A stretch of 51,866 nucleotides of DNA from Flavobacteriales bacterium (lineage in GTDB: Bacteria; Bacteroidota; Bacteroidia; Flavobacteriales_D; Sanyastnellaceae), in the NCBI GenBank assembly GCA_002862785.1, contig PKDZ01000029.1, positions 1 through 51,866 on the forward strand, read 5' to 3'. A model generated the notes under the pieces. It was not told the origin of the DNA. It did no database searches and worked only from the letters and a program-made list of their open reading frames with translations. Positions 43,417-49,600 of this stretch are shown in pieces. A program made the position numbers and the translations under genes. Positions within the stretch are counted from its first letter, which is position 1, and every line of letters begins with the position of its first letter.

Positions 43417-44240
43417 TCAACGGTGGCCGGGCACGCGGATGAGTTCCCGAAATCGACCCCGGCATGTCCTGCCCCACCACCTCACATCCCAGATCAATGC
43501 TCCAGGCGGATCGGGATTTCCGCTGGAATCCACTCCTGGCCATGTCCATTCACCCTGCTGTTCGGCCAGGTCCAAACCTTGGGTATTGACCAGCGTTCCG
43601 TCAGGCCAACGGACCATGCGAAGAAGGACGCCATGCCCCGCCGAGGGAAACCGCCAACGCAACGCTGGCATTCCGTCGACCCCGACCACAATGGAAATGG
43701 GAGCATCGTGACCGGCACAACCCACAGGCTCGGAATGACCGACTTCACCTGGCGACCCCCCATCTGCGGAGGGGGTCCAATCCTGGGGTTCTGGACCCCC
43801 TCGAATCCAGGACCATCCGGTTTCCTCCCACCACCAGGGCCCCCGCATCGCAGCGTGCCAGGAGACCGAGTCCAAGGGTTCGGGCCCCTGCGAGGGCAGT
43901 CGAATGGCCAGACGGCCGGCTTCGTCAGACAGGGCAAACCAGGACTCCGCGGGCCAGCAGGCCACGCTCCATCGGGCAATTCCCGTTCATGTCCATTCCA
44001 GGACAGCACGAGTCCGTCCGTCCGGCAGGCGCCTCCCCCGGTCAACGAATCCGACATGGCGTACAAAGCGATGTACTCGCAATCAGGCGCTCCCAAGGGC
44101 GGTGTCGGATCGGGATGGAGCGATGAAATCACCCATCGGGTGGATGGAATGGTCTGAGCCTGAACGGGTCGTGCCTGGGCCCCCAGCGCGGCAAGCGCGG
44201 CGGCCGCCAGGGACCCCAGAAACCGGCGATGGACATGCAT
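43417..44240 (-). pseudogene. Frameshifted lamin-tail-domain secreted protein
   Basis: Signal peptide from ATG 44240 (MHVHRRFLGSL), then the start of a lamin-tail domain: WVISSLHPDPTPPLGAPDCE and LVLSWNGHERELPDG. The frame then continues as nonsense-like, Pro-rich residues, while the other half of the domain continues in another frame from about 43973: VACWPAESWFALSDEAGRL, LDSVSW, WEETGWSW and DWTPSADGGSPGE. Adding one G at 43969-43970 joins them. So there is a one-base deletion or a sequencing error. The C-terminal segment (VDSSGNPDPPGALIWDVRWW) resembles a T9SS type B/CHU-like module. About 274 residues if repaired. Confidence 0.8.
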
Positions 44241-44253
44241 GCCGCCAACCTCG

Positions 44254-44261
44254 TACCTTTG
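44254..44261 (+). promoter_or_regulatory. Putative -7 element (TACCTTTG) of asd
   Basis: An exact TAnnTTTG match ending 65 nt before the asd ATG, in the 86-nt gap divergent from the lamin-tail gene. It implies a 5' leader of about 55-60 nt, longer than for the other genes here. Confidence 0.5.
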
Positions 44262-44326
44262 CAACAGCGGAATCCTCCGCCCACAAAGGGATTGGAGCCG
44301 TTTACGAATCGAAGAGAGAGCAGCTC

Positions 44327-45340
44327 ATGGCATCCACGCACGGAAGGACTCTGGCCGTTGTCGGCGCCACAGGATTGGTGGGCAGAACCATCATCGAGGG
44401 ATTGATTGCCCGGAAGTTTCCCATCAAGCGCCTCCTTCCCGTGGCCAGTGTGAGATCCAAGGGAAAGACCGTGGACTTCAAAGGGGAAGCCATCGAGGTC
44501 ATGACCATCGAGGAGGCCATCGAGCAGAAGCCCGACCTCGCGCTGTTCAGTGCAGGTGGAGACATCAGCCGACAGTGGGCCCGGGCCTTTACCGACATCG
44601 GATGTTCCGTCGTGGACAATTCTTCCGCTTGGAGAATGGACCCCGATGTGCCGCTCGTCGTGCCGGAAGTGAACGCCGACAGCATCACGGACAAGGACCG
44701 GCTCATTGCCAATCCGAACTGCTCCACCATTCAGCTGGTCATGGCACTCAAGCCCCTCCACGACCGGTTCCTGATTCGCCGGGCCATTGTGAGCACCTAT
44801 CAGAGCGTGACGGGGACGGGACAGGCCGGCATTGCCCAATTGATGGAGGAGCGAAATGGCGGCGAAGCCAACCGCGTCTACCCGCACCCGATTGATGGCA
44901 ACTGTCTGCCGCACTGTGACGTGTTTCTGGAAAACGACTTCACCCGCGAGGAGATGAAGCTTCACCATGAGACCAAGAAGATTCTGGATGACGCCCACGT
45001 GGAGGTAAGCGCCACCGCCGTGCGCGTTCCTGTTGTGGGTGGACACAGCGAAAGCGTTTACCTCGAACTGGAGCGCCCCTTCAGCGTGCCGGACGTCCGC
45101 GAGGCCCTGCAATTGATGCCGGGGCTCATCATTCAGGACGACCCCATGGGCAATCAATATCCGATGCCCCTGCACGCCGAAGGCAAAGACGAAGTCTTTG
45201 TCGGTCGAATCCGCCGGGACATTTCCCACGAGCAGGGCCTTCACATGTGGGTCGTGTCGGACAACCTGCGGAAAGGCGCGGCAACCAACGCCATCCAAAT
45301 TGCCGAATACCTGCAACGGACGGGGCGTTTCCGCAAATGA
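44327..45340 (+). CDS. asd: Aspartate-semialdehyde dehydrogenase
   Basis: Makes aspartate semialdehyde, the branch point for lysine, diaminopimelate, methionine and threonine. The 337-residue protein has the NADP-binding VGATGLVGRTI, DNSSAWRM, the active-site Cys132 in NPNCSTIQ, and GGHSESVYLE. Start ATG 44327 (MASTHGRTLAVVGATG); a much longer upstream frame crosses the divergent gene and is rejected. The stop overlaps the next gene (ATGA), so a Kunitz-domain protein is coupled to it. Confidence 0.96.
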   Translation: MASTHGRTLAVVGATGLVGRTIIEGLIARKFPIKRLLPVASVRSKGKTVDFKGEAIEVMTIEEAIEQKPDLALFSAGGDISRQWARAFTDIGCSVVDNSSAWRMDPDVPLVVPEVNADSITDKDRLIANPNCSTIQLVMALKPLHDRFLIRRAIVSTYQSVTGTGQAGIAQLMEERNGGEANRVYPHPIDGNCLPHCDVFLENDFTREEMKLHHETKKILDDAHVEVSATAVRVPVVGGHSESVYLELERPFSVPDVREALQLMPGLIIQDDPMGNQYPMPLHAEGKDEVFVGRIRRDISHEQGLHMWVVSDNLRKGAATNAIQIAEYLQRTGRFRK

Positions 45341-46098
45341 TCCGGTGCGATCTTCTTCTGATCCTGCTGTGTTGCGGATTCAATGGCGCGGCCCAGGTGG
45401 AGGCCTGTCTGCTTGAGCCCGACCCCGGACCTTGCGAAGCCGCCATTCCCGCTTGGCATTTCGATCCGTTGACGCAGATGTGTACCGAATTCACCTGGGG
45501 CGGGTGTGAAGGGGTGGTCCCATTCCCGACGCTGGCGGCCTGCCAGGCTTCCGGTTGTGTCGGGGACACGTTGTCCTATCCCATTTGCGACTCCATTTCC
45601 GTGACAGCCCTGTCCTTCGGAACATGGCCCAGCGGGGTCGACCACTTGGCCATCCTCGTCGAACCCTTTTTCACATCGATGGTCTGGGTCGCCTATTGCG
45701 GATTTGCCTTGAGCGATGCGAATGGCCACCTCATCGCCGCCGAAACCAACGAGACCGCACCCAATTTCTACGGGTTTGGGAGCGCTCCTGGTTATCCCGA
45801 AGAGCGGTTTCTAGACCTCGAGCCCGGGGTCGACCTGCAAGGGTCACCCCCCCCCTTGCCCTGGACCCTTCGCCTCTTCGAGGGGTGGATGGCCGGTGGT
45901 GGTGGCGACCTCGTCTGCGAATGGACCTGGACAGAGCTCGACCTCGCGTCGGACGTCCGGACCATCCTCCCCACCGAACAGGTGGCCAAACCCATCTATT
46001 TTGATCTGCTCGGTCGTGAGCGCTCTCCAGAGCCCGGGCGCCTCCTGATTCGACGAAGCTCCAACGGGGGGGTCAGCAAAGTGTGGATCAGCGAATGA
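45337..46098 (+). CDS. Secreted Kunitz/BPTI-domain protein with T9SS-like C-terminus
   Basis: A 253-residue exported protein. The signal peptide (1-20) ends FNGAAQ. Residues about 24-74 form a Kunitz domain with six cysteines at 24, 33, 49, 57, 69 and 74. The first four spacings (8, 15, 7) equal those of BPTI, and DPGPCEAAIP and FTWGGCEG match its loop and core. The fifth Cys is shifted by one residue, while the total span is unchanged. The P1 residue is Glu34, not Lys/Arg. A beta-rich body follows and the C-terminus IYFDLLGRERSPEPGRLLIR resembles a T9SS sorting domain. The ATG overlaps the asd stop; the 3' end overlaps metG by 11 nt. Confidence 0.85.
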   Translation: MIRCDLLLILLCCGFNGAAQVEACLLEPDPGPCEAAIPAWHFDPLTQMCTEFTWGGCEGVVPFPTLAACQASGCVGDTLSYPICDSISVTALSFGTWPSGVDHLAILVEPFFTSMVWVAYCGFALSDANGHLIAAETNETAPNFYGFGSAPGYPEERFLDLEPGVDLQGSPPPLPWTLRLFEGWMAGGGGDLVCEWTWTELDLASDVRTILPTEQVAKPIYFDLLGRERSPEPGRLLIRRSSNGGVSKVWISE

Positions 46099-48148
46099 TG
46101 TCGCCCGGCTCGGCGCCCTCCTCGGGGGTCACGAACCGCAAGCCGCCGTCTTCGGTGGAGGCCATCAGGACCATGCCTTGGGAGACGACGCCCCGAATCT
46201 TGCGAGGCGCGAGGTTGGCGAGCAGGGTGACCTTTCTTCCGACAACGTCCTCCGGGGCGAAATGCTCGGCGATTCCGCTCACCACGGTCCGTTCATCATA
46301 GCCCGTCCGGACGGTCAACTGCAAAAGCTTGTCCGCGCCCTTGACCTTTTCGGCTGCGATCACTTCGGCCACCCTCAGGTCGATGGCCTGGAAGTCGTCG
46401 AAGGTGGTCTGGGCCTTCTCAGCCTCGACCTCCCGCATGCCTTCTGCATGGCCCAGCTTGCTCCGCTGTTCCTCCACCTGCTCGTCGGTCACCTTGTCGA
46501 AGAGGATGGGCAGGGAACCAAGGGGCTGACCAGCCGGCACGAGGTCTCCGCCGGCGGCGTCCCAAGGCAAGTGGGCCGTCCCCAGCGCCGAGGCGATCCG
46601 CTCGGACGTCCTCGGCAAGAAGGGAGACAGGACGATTGCGGCATTCGCGGTGACCTGAAGAGCGAGGTTAAGGATGTCCGCCGTGCGCTGCTCATCGGAC
46701 TTGATGACCTTCCAAGGCTCCTCCTCCGTGAGGTATTTGTTGCCGGCCCGGACGAGTCCCATGGCGTGTTGCAGCGCATCCCGGAATCGATACTTCTCAA
46801 TGGAATCGCCCACGGATCCGGGCGTCGAGGCCATCAGGTCCCGCAGGCCCAGATCCGTCTCCGTCCAATTCCCGCTCGCGGCGGGCACCTTGCCGCCGAA
46901 GTATTTGGACGTCAAGACGATCACACGATTCACGAAGTTGCCGAGCACATCGGCGAGCTCGTTGTTGACTCGGGACTGGAAATCCTCCCAGGTGAACTCG
47001 GCATCCTTCTGCTCCGGCATGATGGACGCGAGGACGTAGCGCATCTCGTCGCTCCGGCCGGGAAAATCATCGATGTACTCCTTCGCCCACACCGCCCAGT
47101 TCCGCGAAGTGGAAATCTTGTCGCCCTCGAGGTTCATGAACTCGTTGGCGGGCACATTGTGCGGCAACAGATATCCCCCGTGTTCCTTGAGGAGAATGGG
47201 GAAAATGATGCAGTGGAAGACAATGTTGTCCTTGCCGATGAAATGGACGAGGCGTGTGTCCGCGTCTTTCCAATACGGCTCCCAGTCCACCCCCTTCTTC
47301 TCGGCCCAGTTCTTGGTGGCCGTGATGTAGCCGAGTGGCGCATCGAGCCAAACGTAGAGGACCTTGCCATCCGCCCCTTCTACGGGCACGGGGACGCCCC
47401 AATCGAGGTCCCGGGTCATGGCCCGGCTCTGCAGACCGCCGTCCACCCAGCTCTTGCACTGTCCGATGACGTGGGCCTTCCACGTTTTGGGGTCGTGATG
47501 CGGGGCTCCATCCAACTGACCCTGCTCGAGGTACTCTCTGAGCCAGTCCTCGTGGCGGTCCATTGGGAGGTACCACAATGTCGTTTCACGCCACTCCGGC
47601 GTCGCCCCGCTCAGGGTGCTCTTCGGGTCGATGAGCTCTTCGGGGGACAACGCGGATCCGCACTTCTCGCATTGATCACCGTAGGCTTTGTCATGGCCGC
47701 ATTTCGGGCAACCACCCTGGACATACCGATCCGCGAGGAACTGCTTCTCCACCGGGTCGAAAAACTGTTGACGCGTTTCCTGTGTGAAGGCTCCTTGGTC
47801 CAGAAGGGTCAAGAAGTACTCTTGGGCAAATCGATGATGGTCCGGGCTGGACGTGCGGTCGTAGTGGTCGAAGGCGATGTCCAGTCCGGCAAAGGCCTCC
47901 TGCATCTCCTCGTGGTAGCGGTCCACAATGGCTCTGGGGGTGGTGCCCTCCTTTCGGGCACGCAGCGTGATGGCGGCCCCGTGCTCATCCGAACCGCAGA
48001 CCCAGACGACGTCCTGCTTGCGCAAACGCAGGTACCTCACATACACATCCGCTGGGAGGTAGGCACCGGCGATGTGACCGATGTGGATTGGGCCGTTGGC
48101 GTAGGGCAACGCGGAAGTGACCAGGGTCCGGGCAAGGGTCGCGCTCAT
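46088..48148 (-). CDS. metG: Methionine-tRNA ligase
   Basis: Class I aminoacyl-tRNA synthetase of 686 residues. The signature HIGH motif is in ANGPIHIGHIAG near the N-terminus; the KMSKS-type loop reads KISTS in GDKISTSRNW. Four zinc-ligand cysteines lie in CPKCGHD and CEKCG. The last roughly 110 residues form the C-terminal tRNA-binding (OB-fold, dimerisation) domain, VAEVIAAEKVKGADKLLQL. ATG 48148 (MSATLARTLVTSALPYANG) is preferred; an upstream start at 48235 would precede the promoter-like TACCTTCG. Confidence 0.97.
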   Translation of the reverse strand: MSATLARTLVTSALPYANGPIHIGHIAGAYLPADVYVRYLRLRKQDVVWVCGSDEHGAAITLRARKEGTTPRAIVDRYHEEMQEAFAGLDIAFDHYDRTSSPDHHRFAQEYFLTLLDQGAFTQETRQQFFDPVEKQFLADRYVQGGCPKCGHDKAYGDQCEKCGSALSPEELIDPKSTLSGATPEWRETTLWYLPMDRHEDWLREYLEQGQLDGAPHHDPKTWKAHVIGQCKSWVDGGLQSRAMTRDLDWGVPVPVEGADGKVLYVWLDAPLGYITATKNWAEKKGVDWEPYWKDADTRLVHFIGKDNIVFHCIIFPILLKEHGGYLLPHNVPANEFMNLEGDKISTSRNWAVWAKEYIDDFPGRSDEMRYVLASIMPEQKDAEFTWEDFQSRVNNELADVLGNFVNRVIVLTSKYFGGKVPAASGNWTETDLGLRDLMASTPGSVGDSIEKYRFRDALQHAMGLVRAGNKYLTEEEPWKVIKSDEQRTADILNLALQVTANAAIVLSPFLPRTSERIASALGTAHLPWDAAGGDLVPAGQPLGSLPILFDKVTDEQVEEQRSKLGHAEGMREVEAEKAQTTFDDFQAIDLRVAEVIAAEKVKGADKLLQLTVRTGYDERTVVSGIAEHFAPEDVVGRKVTLLANLAPRKIRGVVSQGMVLMASTEDGGLRFVTPEEGAEPGDIIR

Positions 48149-48153
48149 CCCGG

Positions 48154-48161
48154 CGAAGGTA
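48154..48161 (-). promoter_or_regulatory. Putative -7 element (TACCTTCG) of metG
   Basis: TACCTTCG on the minus strand ends only 5 nt before the metG ATG; transcription would begin at the start codon. The same octamer occurs upstream of lpdA and of the GT2-GT9 gene. Confidence 0.45.
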
Positions 48162-48226
48162 GCCACCACACCCATGGCCCGAACTGCGGCCCGCGAATTG
48201 CGATATTGCCGGCACAACCTTGTCCG

Positions 48227-49600
48227 TTGAAACACATTCTTCTCCCTGTCTTGCTCGCCCTCACGTCCATTGTGATGGGCCAGACTCCGGAAATGAGAAA
48301 GGGTCGAGAGCTAAGGGTGGATTCGTTGAAACACATCGACAATCCCCGTTGGTGGTACCCTGGAGAGCCCATCACCTGGGCTCCCGATGGTGTGCTGGAC
48401 TCGCTCTTCGCCATGGAACTGGATGGGTTCTTGGTCTTCACTGAGTCGCCCCGCTCGAAGAATTACAACAAGGCCATTGCCTTCTCCCGCTCCCCGGAAG
48501 GCCGGGAGGCCCTGTTCATTCAGGGGGACTGCCGCTACATCAGCTACGATCGCGGAAGGACCAATTCCAGCCACAGCATAGTCAATGGCCACAACCATTA
48601 TTCCAGCTCTTACTGGAAGGAGGGCACGCTGTACTTCCAGAGCGGCCATGCGAACTGGTTTCGCCACACCCAACGGCTCTATCATTCACAAGAGACCCTC
48701 CAGATGGAGCGGTACAAAACCGAGGATGCCCCGGAGCGCTTGGAGATTGCCGCCGTCTTGCCCCTCCAAGATGGATGTGCTTTCCTCTATCCCATGAGCG
48801 AGACCATGACCCGGTCGGAGGTCGTTCCTGCCTATTTCCTCGCGCACAACTCCACCGAATTCGAATGGTGGGGACGGGTGAACCCTGCGGTGGGCAATGT
48901 GAACAATGAGTTGACGATGTACCCGCTGCAAGACTATTCGGTCATCCGCAATGGCTCCAGCTTGACCGTCATTCGAAGGTCAGACTTGAGTTTCGTCAAT
49001 GTTCCCTCCAAACTGGCCAGCCGCATGGAGGCCAATACAGGATCCATCCGTGGGACTTGCTCCGGTTGGAAGGGCAATGTCATATTCCGGGAATTCCCTG
49101 ATGGCGAGGCGGTCATTGAGGACCTGGATTCACTCGTGATTGGAGCCGCTTGGTCCCCCTTGATTCTTCCAGCCCAAGCTCCGACCAAGCAAGAGGATCA
49201 GCAACTCGACTCCACGTGGGGCTGGACGTTGGCTGTCATCATGACCTCCGCCTTCCTCCTCCTCCTCTTTGATCGTTTGACCTACCGCGGCCGGATCCGA
49301 TTCGTCCCCATCGATCCTTCCGCAGGGGGAACGAAGCCCATCGCTTTGTCGCAGTGGACAGAAACGATGTTGGCCCATTCCGGGCGCAGAATGGGATCGG
49401 ATGCCTTTGACCAGATCATCGGGCTGGGGCAGGTGGAATCCCCCGAAACAAGGCGATCGAAACGCAGCCGCTACATCCAATTGGTCAACGCTGAGGCACA
49501 GGCCCGATTCGGGCGTGACCTGGTCGTGCGGGTTCGGTCGGAGGAGGACAAGCGGGTCATGCTGTACCACATCATCCGGCTGGATGAGGACCATGATTGA
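48227..49600 (+). CDS. Unrecognised exported, membrane-anchored protein
   Basis: A 457-residue protein beginning at TTG 48227 with a signal peptide ([19 protein letters not shown]). A large exported region of about 310 residues follows, aromatic-rich and without cysteine clusters of a known kind ([28 protein letters not shown]). One membrane helix lies near 331-350 ([17 protein letters not shown]), then a cytoplasmic tail of about 105 residues with Arg-rich segments. I do not recognise the family. It ends 26 nt before kbl. The long open frame upstream is antisense to metG and is excluded. Confidence 0.6.

Follow-up and report, generated by a model that had tools for sequence, protein, structure and literature searches.

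The Kunitz family is generally regarded as belonging to animals, and the question raised by the present locus is whether a protein encoded by a Flavobacteriales bacterium genuinely belongs to this family and, if so, upon what a domain bearing Glu at its P1 position would act. The window, i.e., the whole stretch of DNA analysed here (51,866 nucleotides), had received an initial annotation in which a Kunitz domain with a displaced cysteine was placed at 45337-45580; this interval does contain the domain but is only part of a gene of 253 residues, of which the domain represents about one fifth. The features of the locus are as follows, the Gln20 that ends the putative signal peptide being near-invariant in the alignment of the genus copies (alignment A1).

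45337..46098, + strand: whole gene, 253 amino acids plus stop (open reading frame list; orthologs in the genus; alignment A1)
45337..45396, + strand: putative signal peptide, residues 1-20 (MIRCDLLLILLCCGFNGAAQ), read by eye
45406..45558, + strand: Kunitz/BPTI domain, Cys24 to Cys74 (PF00014; best AlphaFold2 model)
45436..45438, + strand: P1 codon GAA, Glu34 (conserved in the genus, with one exception among 14 copies)
45514..45525, + strand: VVPF segment, site of a one-residue deletion relative to the printed animal Kunitz domains (phmmer alignments)
45586..45930, + strand: unnamed predicted beta-sandwich, roughly residues 84-198; Cys84 and Cys194 are conserved (structure model)
45985..46095, + strand: short C-terminal tail (FDLLGR...PG..LI...G...KV.I.E), 37 residues, probable T9SS sorting tail (tail model)
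44327..45340, + strand: asd, aspartate-semialdehyde dehydrogenase, upstream neighbour (NF011456, 8.7e-127, NCBIfam)
46088..48235, - strand: metG, methionine--tRNA ligase, convergent downstream neighbour (NF001100, 2.5e-240, NCBIfam)

The start codon shares four bases (ATGA) with the asd stop, as in 10 of the 14 genus copies (own copy included), and the other end of the open reading frame (ORF) runs into the convergent metG. Judging by eye, asd is the upstream neighbour in 13 of the 14 copies and the convergent metG arrangement is likewise found in 13 of 14, the own copy being included in both counts; from their NCBIfam names, the genes flanking the Kunitz gene are housekeeping genes. Upstream of asd lies a 256-residue ORF (43497-44264, - strand) with no NCBIfam match at E <= 1e-5.

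Six cysteines were read in the ORF at 24, 33, 49, 57, 69 and 74 (gaps 8, 15, 7, 11 and 4), together with Glu34 after GPC and WGGC at 54-57, all as first annotated. With PF00014, i.e., the Kunitz/BPTI family (MEROPS I2), the protein scored 43.5 bits (E 3.8e-11) for a cut-off of 21 bits, which bears out its assignment as a true Kunitz domain; nothing else in the own genome (2.4 Mb) matched PF00014 up to E 10, and among 14 control genomes five gave matches at E <= 10 and none passed the cut-off. A phmmer search of the PDB returned 97 distinct sequences up to E 0.1, and in its alignments the six cysteines line up with those of animal Kunitz domains. The strong profile score, the PDB matches and the lack of any control above the cut-off together indicate that the match is not due to chance. 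Among the best 60 of the 97 PDB sequences, the nearest was SmCI (4bd9; 2.3e-18 over three domains), a Kunitz protein from a marine worm; it differs from the window protein in being animal and three-domained, in displaying no deletion in the printed alignments, and in bearing Thr, Arg and Lys at its P1 positions.

The structure prediction that had been called for also came out as a Kunitz fold; with a strong profile match and this fold, neither of the outcomes named in advance as refuting the assignment arose. While the AlphaFold2 model of the domain was built with 75 prokaryotic sequences, that of the full-length protein was built with 20. The five domain models had pLDDT values of 95, 94, 85, 61 and 54, and the best of them exhibits strands at 17-23 and 28-34 followed by a helix at 46-51, i.e., the Kunitz hairpin and C-terminal helix; within the full-length model, the blocks of the Kunitz domain reached just 44-59. 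Searched with Foldseek, the best domain model gave 189 matches, 23 of them at E <= 0.001 (including mambaquaretin, textilinin and TFPI), with BPTI at E of about 0.002 and a TM score (query) of 0.77-0.83 to the top 20 PDB matches. From the alignment, the disulfides would be 24-74, 33-57 and 49-69 (1-6, 2-4 and 3-5). The window domain is thus alike to the Kunitz/BPTI family in its six-cysteine framework, its GPC loop, its GGC and its fold (TM of about 0.8) but differs from it in having 11 residues and not 12 between Cys38 and Cys51 (VVPF), 4 and not 3 between Cys51 and Cys55, and Glu at P1.

Beyond the Kunitz domain, the predicted beta-sandwich had no Pfam match. In the full-length model, its 10-residue blocks (81-200) had pLDDT values of 67-90 except for one block at 57; this model had no Foldseek match in the PDB at E <= 0.001, with weak matches to assorted beta-sandwich proteins, and the region can be described only as a generic predicted beta-sandwich. 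As regards the C-terminal tail, the T9SS sorting model TIGR04183 did not match the 253-residue protein (NCBIfam up to E 10); in the own genome, the same model gave 56 matches at E <= 1, of which 36 passed the cut-off, and at that E it also matched in 13 of 14 control genomes (one over the cut-off). A model built from the tail itself (A4) retrieved another protein of the own genome, L148 (5.5e-8), ending in the same tail, besides two weak matches (L149, 0.028; L150, 0.18). The tail is probably a T9SS sorting tail; the protein, whose putative signal peptide was read by eye, is probably exported, by a route that would be the T9SS, and may be attached to the surface.

The fifth cysteine had been regarded as displaced, a peculiarity that turned out to be the sum of two length changes. 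The usual length between Cys38 and Cys51 in animal Kunitz domains is 12 residues; in the five printed alignments that cover the site (SmCI and TFPI domains), the window domain lacks one residue before the fifth cysteine, within the GVVPF segment, and in the one alignment reaching the last cysteine (TFPI) it has one extra residue after it. As a deletion before and an insertion after, this is not simply a shifted cysteine. Among 112 loci compared, 111 gave a domain (L099 gave none), and 11 residues separate cysteines 4 and 5 in all of them, L060 included, except L018 and L019 (10) and L085 (12); the animal spacing of 12 is not the one found here, 11 being a length variant in a spacing that does not define Pfam membership. 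Between the fifth and sixth cysteines there are 4 residues in the genus and 2-5 in other loci. From these alignments, the short segment (GGCxG[VT]VPF) is a trait of a whole branch that spans Bacteroidota, Marinimicrobia, relatives of Alcanivorax, and archaea, while the long gap between Cys51 and Cys55 is a trait of the genus.

Kunitz domains had been annotated as rare in bacteria, a statement that does not hold within the order, where 68 of 399 genomes had a match at E <= 0.01 (own included), yet only 6 of 395 genomes drawn from the phylum had one at E <= 0.001 (own included). Within the genus, the gene was present in 13 of 16 other genomes, the three without it being 74-83% complete, and the orthologs come from metagenome-assembled genomes (MAGs) of Flavobacteriales or Crocinitomicaceae. 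In a wider scan, 124 loci were confirmed, and the 80 of them that were retrieved came from Flavobacteriales, Saprospiraceae, Hymenobacter, relatives of Alcanivorax, Marinimicrobia, Nitrosopumilus, Methanophagales and others, and many of these relatives are small proteins with an apparent lipobox (by eye). For the Kunitz part, dS could be computed in eight of the 11 pairs chosen, and dN was much lower than dS in all eight; in the other three dS was saturated. By computation, the protein is a member of the Kunitz family, is predicted to adopt its fold and is conserved; as a whole, the ORF encodes a real, conserved and probably exported Kunitz protein of a prokaryotic branch. The literature searched, where coverage of subscription journals was thin (PMC11511053, PMC9779611 and PMC5508998 included), yielded one paper on a bacterial Kunitz protein and no description of such a branch. 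The closest published parallel is that of Acinetobacter (F6W77, KABP1-5), likewise with Kunitz domains from a bacterial genome and, unlike the window protein, with five domains bearing Arg or Leu at P1; these were tested on coagulation factors and elastase, and P1 is said to decide the target (PMC11511053).

Two side observations concern these relatives. By eye, the single-domain relatives L035, L080, L091 and L095 have additional cysteines close to the domain boundaries, which may perhaps form a fourth disulfide. Besides, a second Kunitz-like group was met in a sample of 25 loci, 20 of them hand-picked among the weaker order-wide matches: 21 loci (L155, L156 and L158-L176) have 10 residues between cysteines 4 and 5 and a YSGC-like motif; of the other four, three read 11 residues and one (L157) did not match the six-cysteine pattern. 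Like the window protein, the 21 carry bacterial Kunitz-like domains that are probably exported, apparently as small lipoproteins; they differ from it by a spacing of 8-9/15/7/10/3-4, by the YSGC-like motif in place of WGGC and by a lipobox (by eye) in place of the T9SS-like tail. At P1, 19 of these 21 loci have an uncharged residue (ten Gln, four Leu, three Ala, one Met and one Phe) and two have Glu.

With respect to P1, the conservation of the Glu within the genus was confirmed, with 13 of 14 copies having Glu and one (L017) Phe; the reactive loop as a whole is conserved there (alignment A1). The 12 genus rows with Glu include both GAA and GAG, so that the codon has drifted without a change of residue. 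A further genus of the same family (g14) has Glu at P1 in three of its eight copies and Phe in five. Outwards, among 66 representatives less than 80% identical (drawn from 96 distinct rows, those with more than six gaps being dropped), Cys14 is kept in 66 and Ala16 in 63, while P1 is Glu in 18, Arg in 11, Lys in 9, Phe, Leu and Asn in 6 each, Asp in 5, Met in 3 and another residue in two, frequencies that are biased because P1 was restricted to E, F or R in one of the two patterns used for searching. The change between Glu and Phe always involves all three bases of the codon and thus is not a single mutation; codons differing at all three bases amounted to 4 of 211 between L039 and L062 and 4 of 230 between L023 and L059, the five pairs used for codon comparison having been picked because their P1 differs. 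In a tree of 20 full-length proteins, five rows have Phe, for which parsimony gives three changes, at least two of them on well-supported branches, the window protein itself sitting on a very long branch of unsure placement. Of 20 pairs of domains from within a locus (15 of them from one protein), 16 also differ at P1, and other surface sites behave similarly; site entropy reaches 3.64 bits at other exposed sites against 2.95 at P1. Since other exposed sites are equally variable, the variability of P1 alone is no proof of contact with a protease.

Several loci hold more than one such domain, namely (i) three neighbouring Kunitz genes with P1 E/R/L in a Lewinella MAG (L095:2918-3777), (ii) neighbouring Kunitz genes or domains with P1 M/D (L074:3593-4177), (iii) neighbouring Kunitz genes or domains 85% identical with P1 K/E (L098:3926-4415), and (iv) one six-domain protein with P1 K,E,K,E,K,R (L034:3551-4684).

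As to function, the company kept by relatives is the most telling clue. In a Nitrosopumilaceae MAG, a Kunitz domain and a full serpin (4e-121) are encoded in one ORF (L061:3950-5311); in a Methanophagales MAG, a Kunitz domain is followed by Kazal domains (six stretches; L026:150-1466); and in a Saprospiraceae MAG, a serpin gene lies immediately upstream, on the same strand, of a lipoprotein-like Kunitz gene (L091:2646-4165), while another Saprospiraceae protein contains six Kunitz domains. The own genome gave no serpin when searched for one. Neighbour proteins of relatives were screened with 11 genus loci and 9 near-duplicate loci left out, and the 145 proteins retained were cut from 196 by dropping the longest, which biases the screen against large proteases; over the 71 of 145 proteins and 25 of 57 families listed, no serine protease family appeared save one Lon-type match, and the families seen included, besides that match, two M20 peptidases, one serpin and one Kazal protein. 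Because relatives associate with serpin and Kazal inhibitors, an inhibitor role is favoured, a reading supported by association.

With moderate confidence, the window protein is thus read as a secreted or surface Kunitz protein of the prokaryotic branch, acting as a canonical inhibitor of a serine protease that is probably foreign and accepts Glu. The loop GPC-E-AAI would enter a chymotrypsin-fold protease like a substrate and stay bound, with Glu34 sitting in the S1 pocket of the target; the beta-sandwich would act as a spacer, and export by the type IX secretion system would be directed by the C-terminal tail. The protease bound in this way would probably come from another organism and have an S1 pocket that admits Glu. 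Against this reading stand the poor suitability of Glu at P1 for trypsin- and chymotrypsin-type targets, the lack of a TIGR04183 match to the tail, a P1 no more variable than several other exposed sites, and an own enzyme that takes Glu (L183, below). Both inhibition as such and the class of the target are inferred.

It is possible, though unlikely, that the Kunitz fold inhibits no protease here and is kept as a module for binding or structure, the Glu at P1 serving another partner or nothing. Some animal Kunitz domains, such as channel blockers and that of collagen VI, do not inhibit, and Glu at P1 is unusual for an inhibitor; besides, conservation of the protein extends beyond its Kunitz domain, and in one relative (L068) kelch and dockerin domains precede a lone Kunitz domain. 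Against such a module speak the relatives fused to or paired with serpin and Kazal inhibitors and the variation of P1 next to the near-fixed Cys14 and Ala16.

Rather unlikely is the regulation of a protease of the bacterium itself, an idea to which the fixed place of the gene across the genus and its near-fixed P1 there lend some weight. Own-genome searches with PF00089, PF13365 and PF10459 gave one DegP-like protein, three lysyl-endopeptidase-like proteins (L179, L180 and L181, each with lysyl endopeptidase as its nearest match, the three E values being, from the strongest, 3e-39, 5.7e-35 and 1.9e-33) and two S46 dipeptidyl-peptidases. The best candidate, L183, resembles DPP11 and belongs to a family removing dipeptides ending in Asp or Glu: its best PDB match is an Asp/Glu-specific dipeptidyl-peptidase (9.2e-194), and in the specificity region (NFDRTWE in L183, AFDGNWE in L182) its Arg also stands, by alignment, in solved Asp/Glu-specific enzymes, where L182 has Gly. 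At this site, Arg goes with a preference for Asp/Glu and Gly with one for hydrophobic residues. Going by this region, L183 is probably an own chymotrypsin-fold enzyme taking Glu, so a foreign target is favoured less strongly than it would otherwise be. Nevertheless, S46 enzymes act as exopeptidases and require their substrate to have a free N-terminus; L183 being an exopeptidase by family, the internal Kunitz loop should not fit it, and a foreign target is still favoured. The DegP-like and lysyl-endopeptidase-like S1 proteins fit Glu poorly, and the housekeeping genes around the Kunitz gene likewise argue against an own target.

The same lysyl-endopeptidase-like proteins open a further, improbable reading, in which Glu at P1 would avoid inhibiting the secreted Lys-C-like proteases of the bacterium, the target being bound mainly through other residues of the loop. 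Consistent with it, three such ORFs occur in the genome, of which L180 matches the T9SS tail model below its cut-off, and neither Lys nor Arg is found at P1 in the 14 genus and 8 g14 copies, all of which have Glu or Phe; yet this reasoning is by inference only, and many relatives elsewhere carry Lys or Arg. Finally, that the gene was lately acquired from an animal, or is a contaminant, is hardly credible: Kunitz domains are best known from animals, but asd and metG flank the gene in 13 of the 14 copies in the genus and its deletion is common to bacterial and archaeal domains while absent from the five printed animal alignments covering the site.

Returning to the favoured reading of a secreted inhibitor of a Glu-accepting protease, a broader picture may tentatively be drawn. 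An old bacterial and archaeal branch of Kunitz domains, marked by the GGCxG[VT]VPF deletion, would comprise surface lipoproteins and T9SS cargo deployed together with serpins and Kazal inhibitors, in which repeated switching at P1, from Glu to Phe and back or, where copies lie in tandem, from one charged residue to another, would track the proteases of enemies; the window protein would then be the Glu form directed against a glutamyl endopeptidase. With the Kunitz gene kept in one place across the genus and two inhibitor families linked to the branch, this would provide a system for the study of microbial resistance to extracellular proteases, and the alternation of Glu and Phe at P1 would make target specificity directly testable with small domains.
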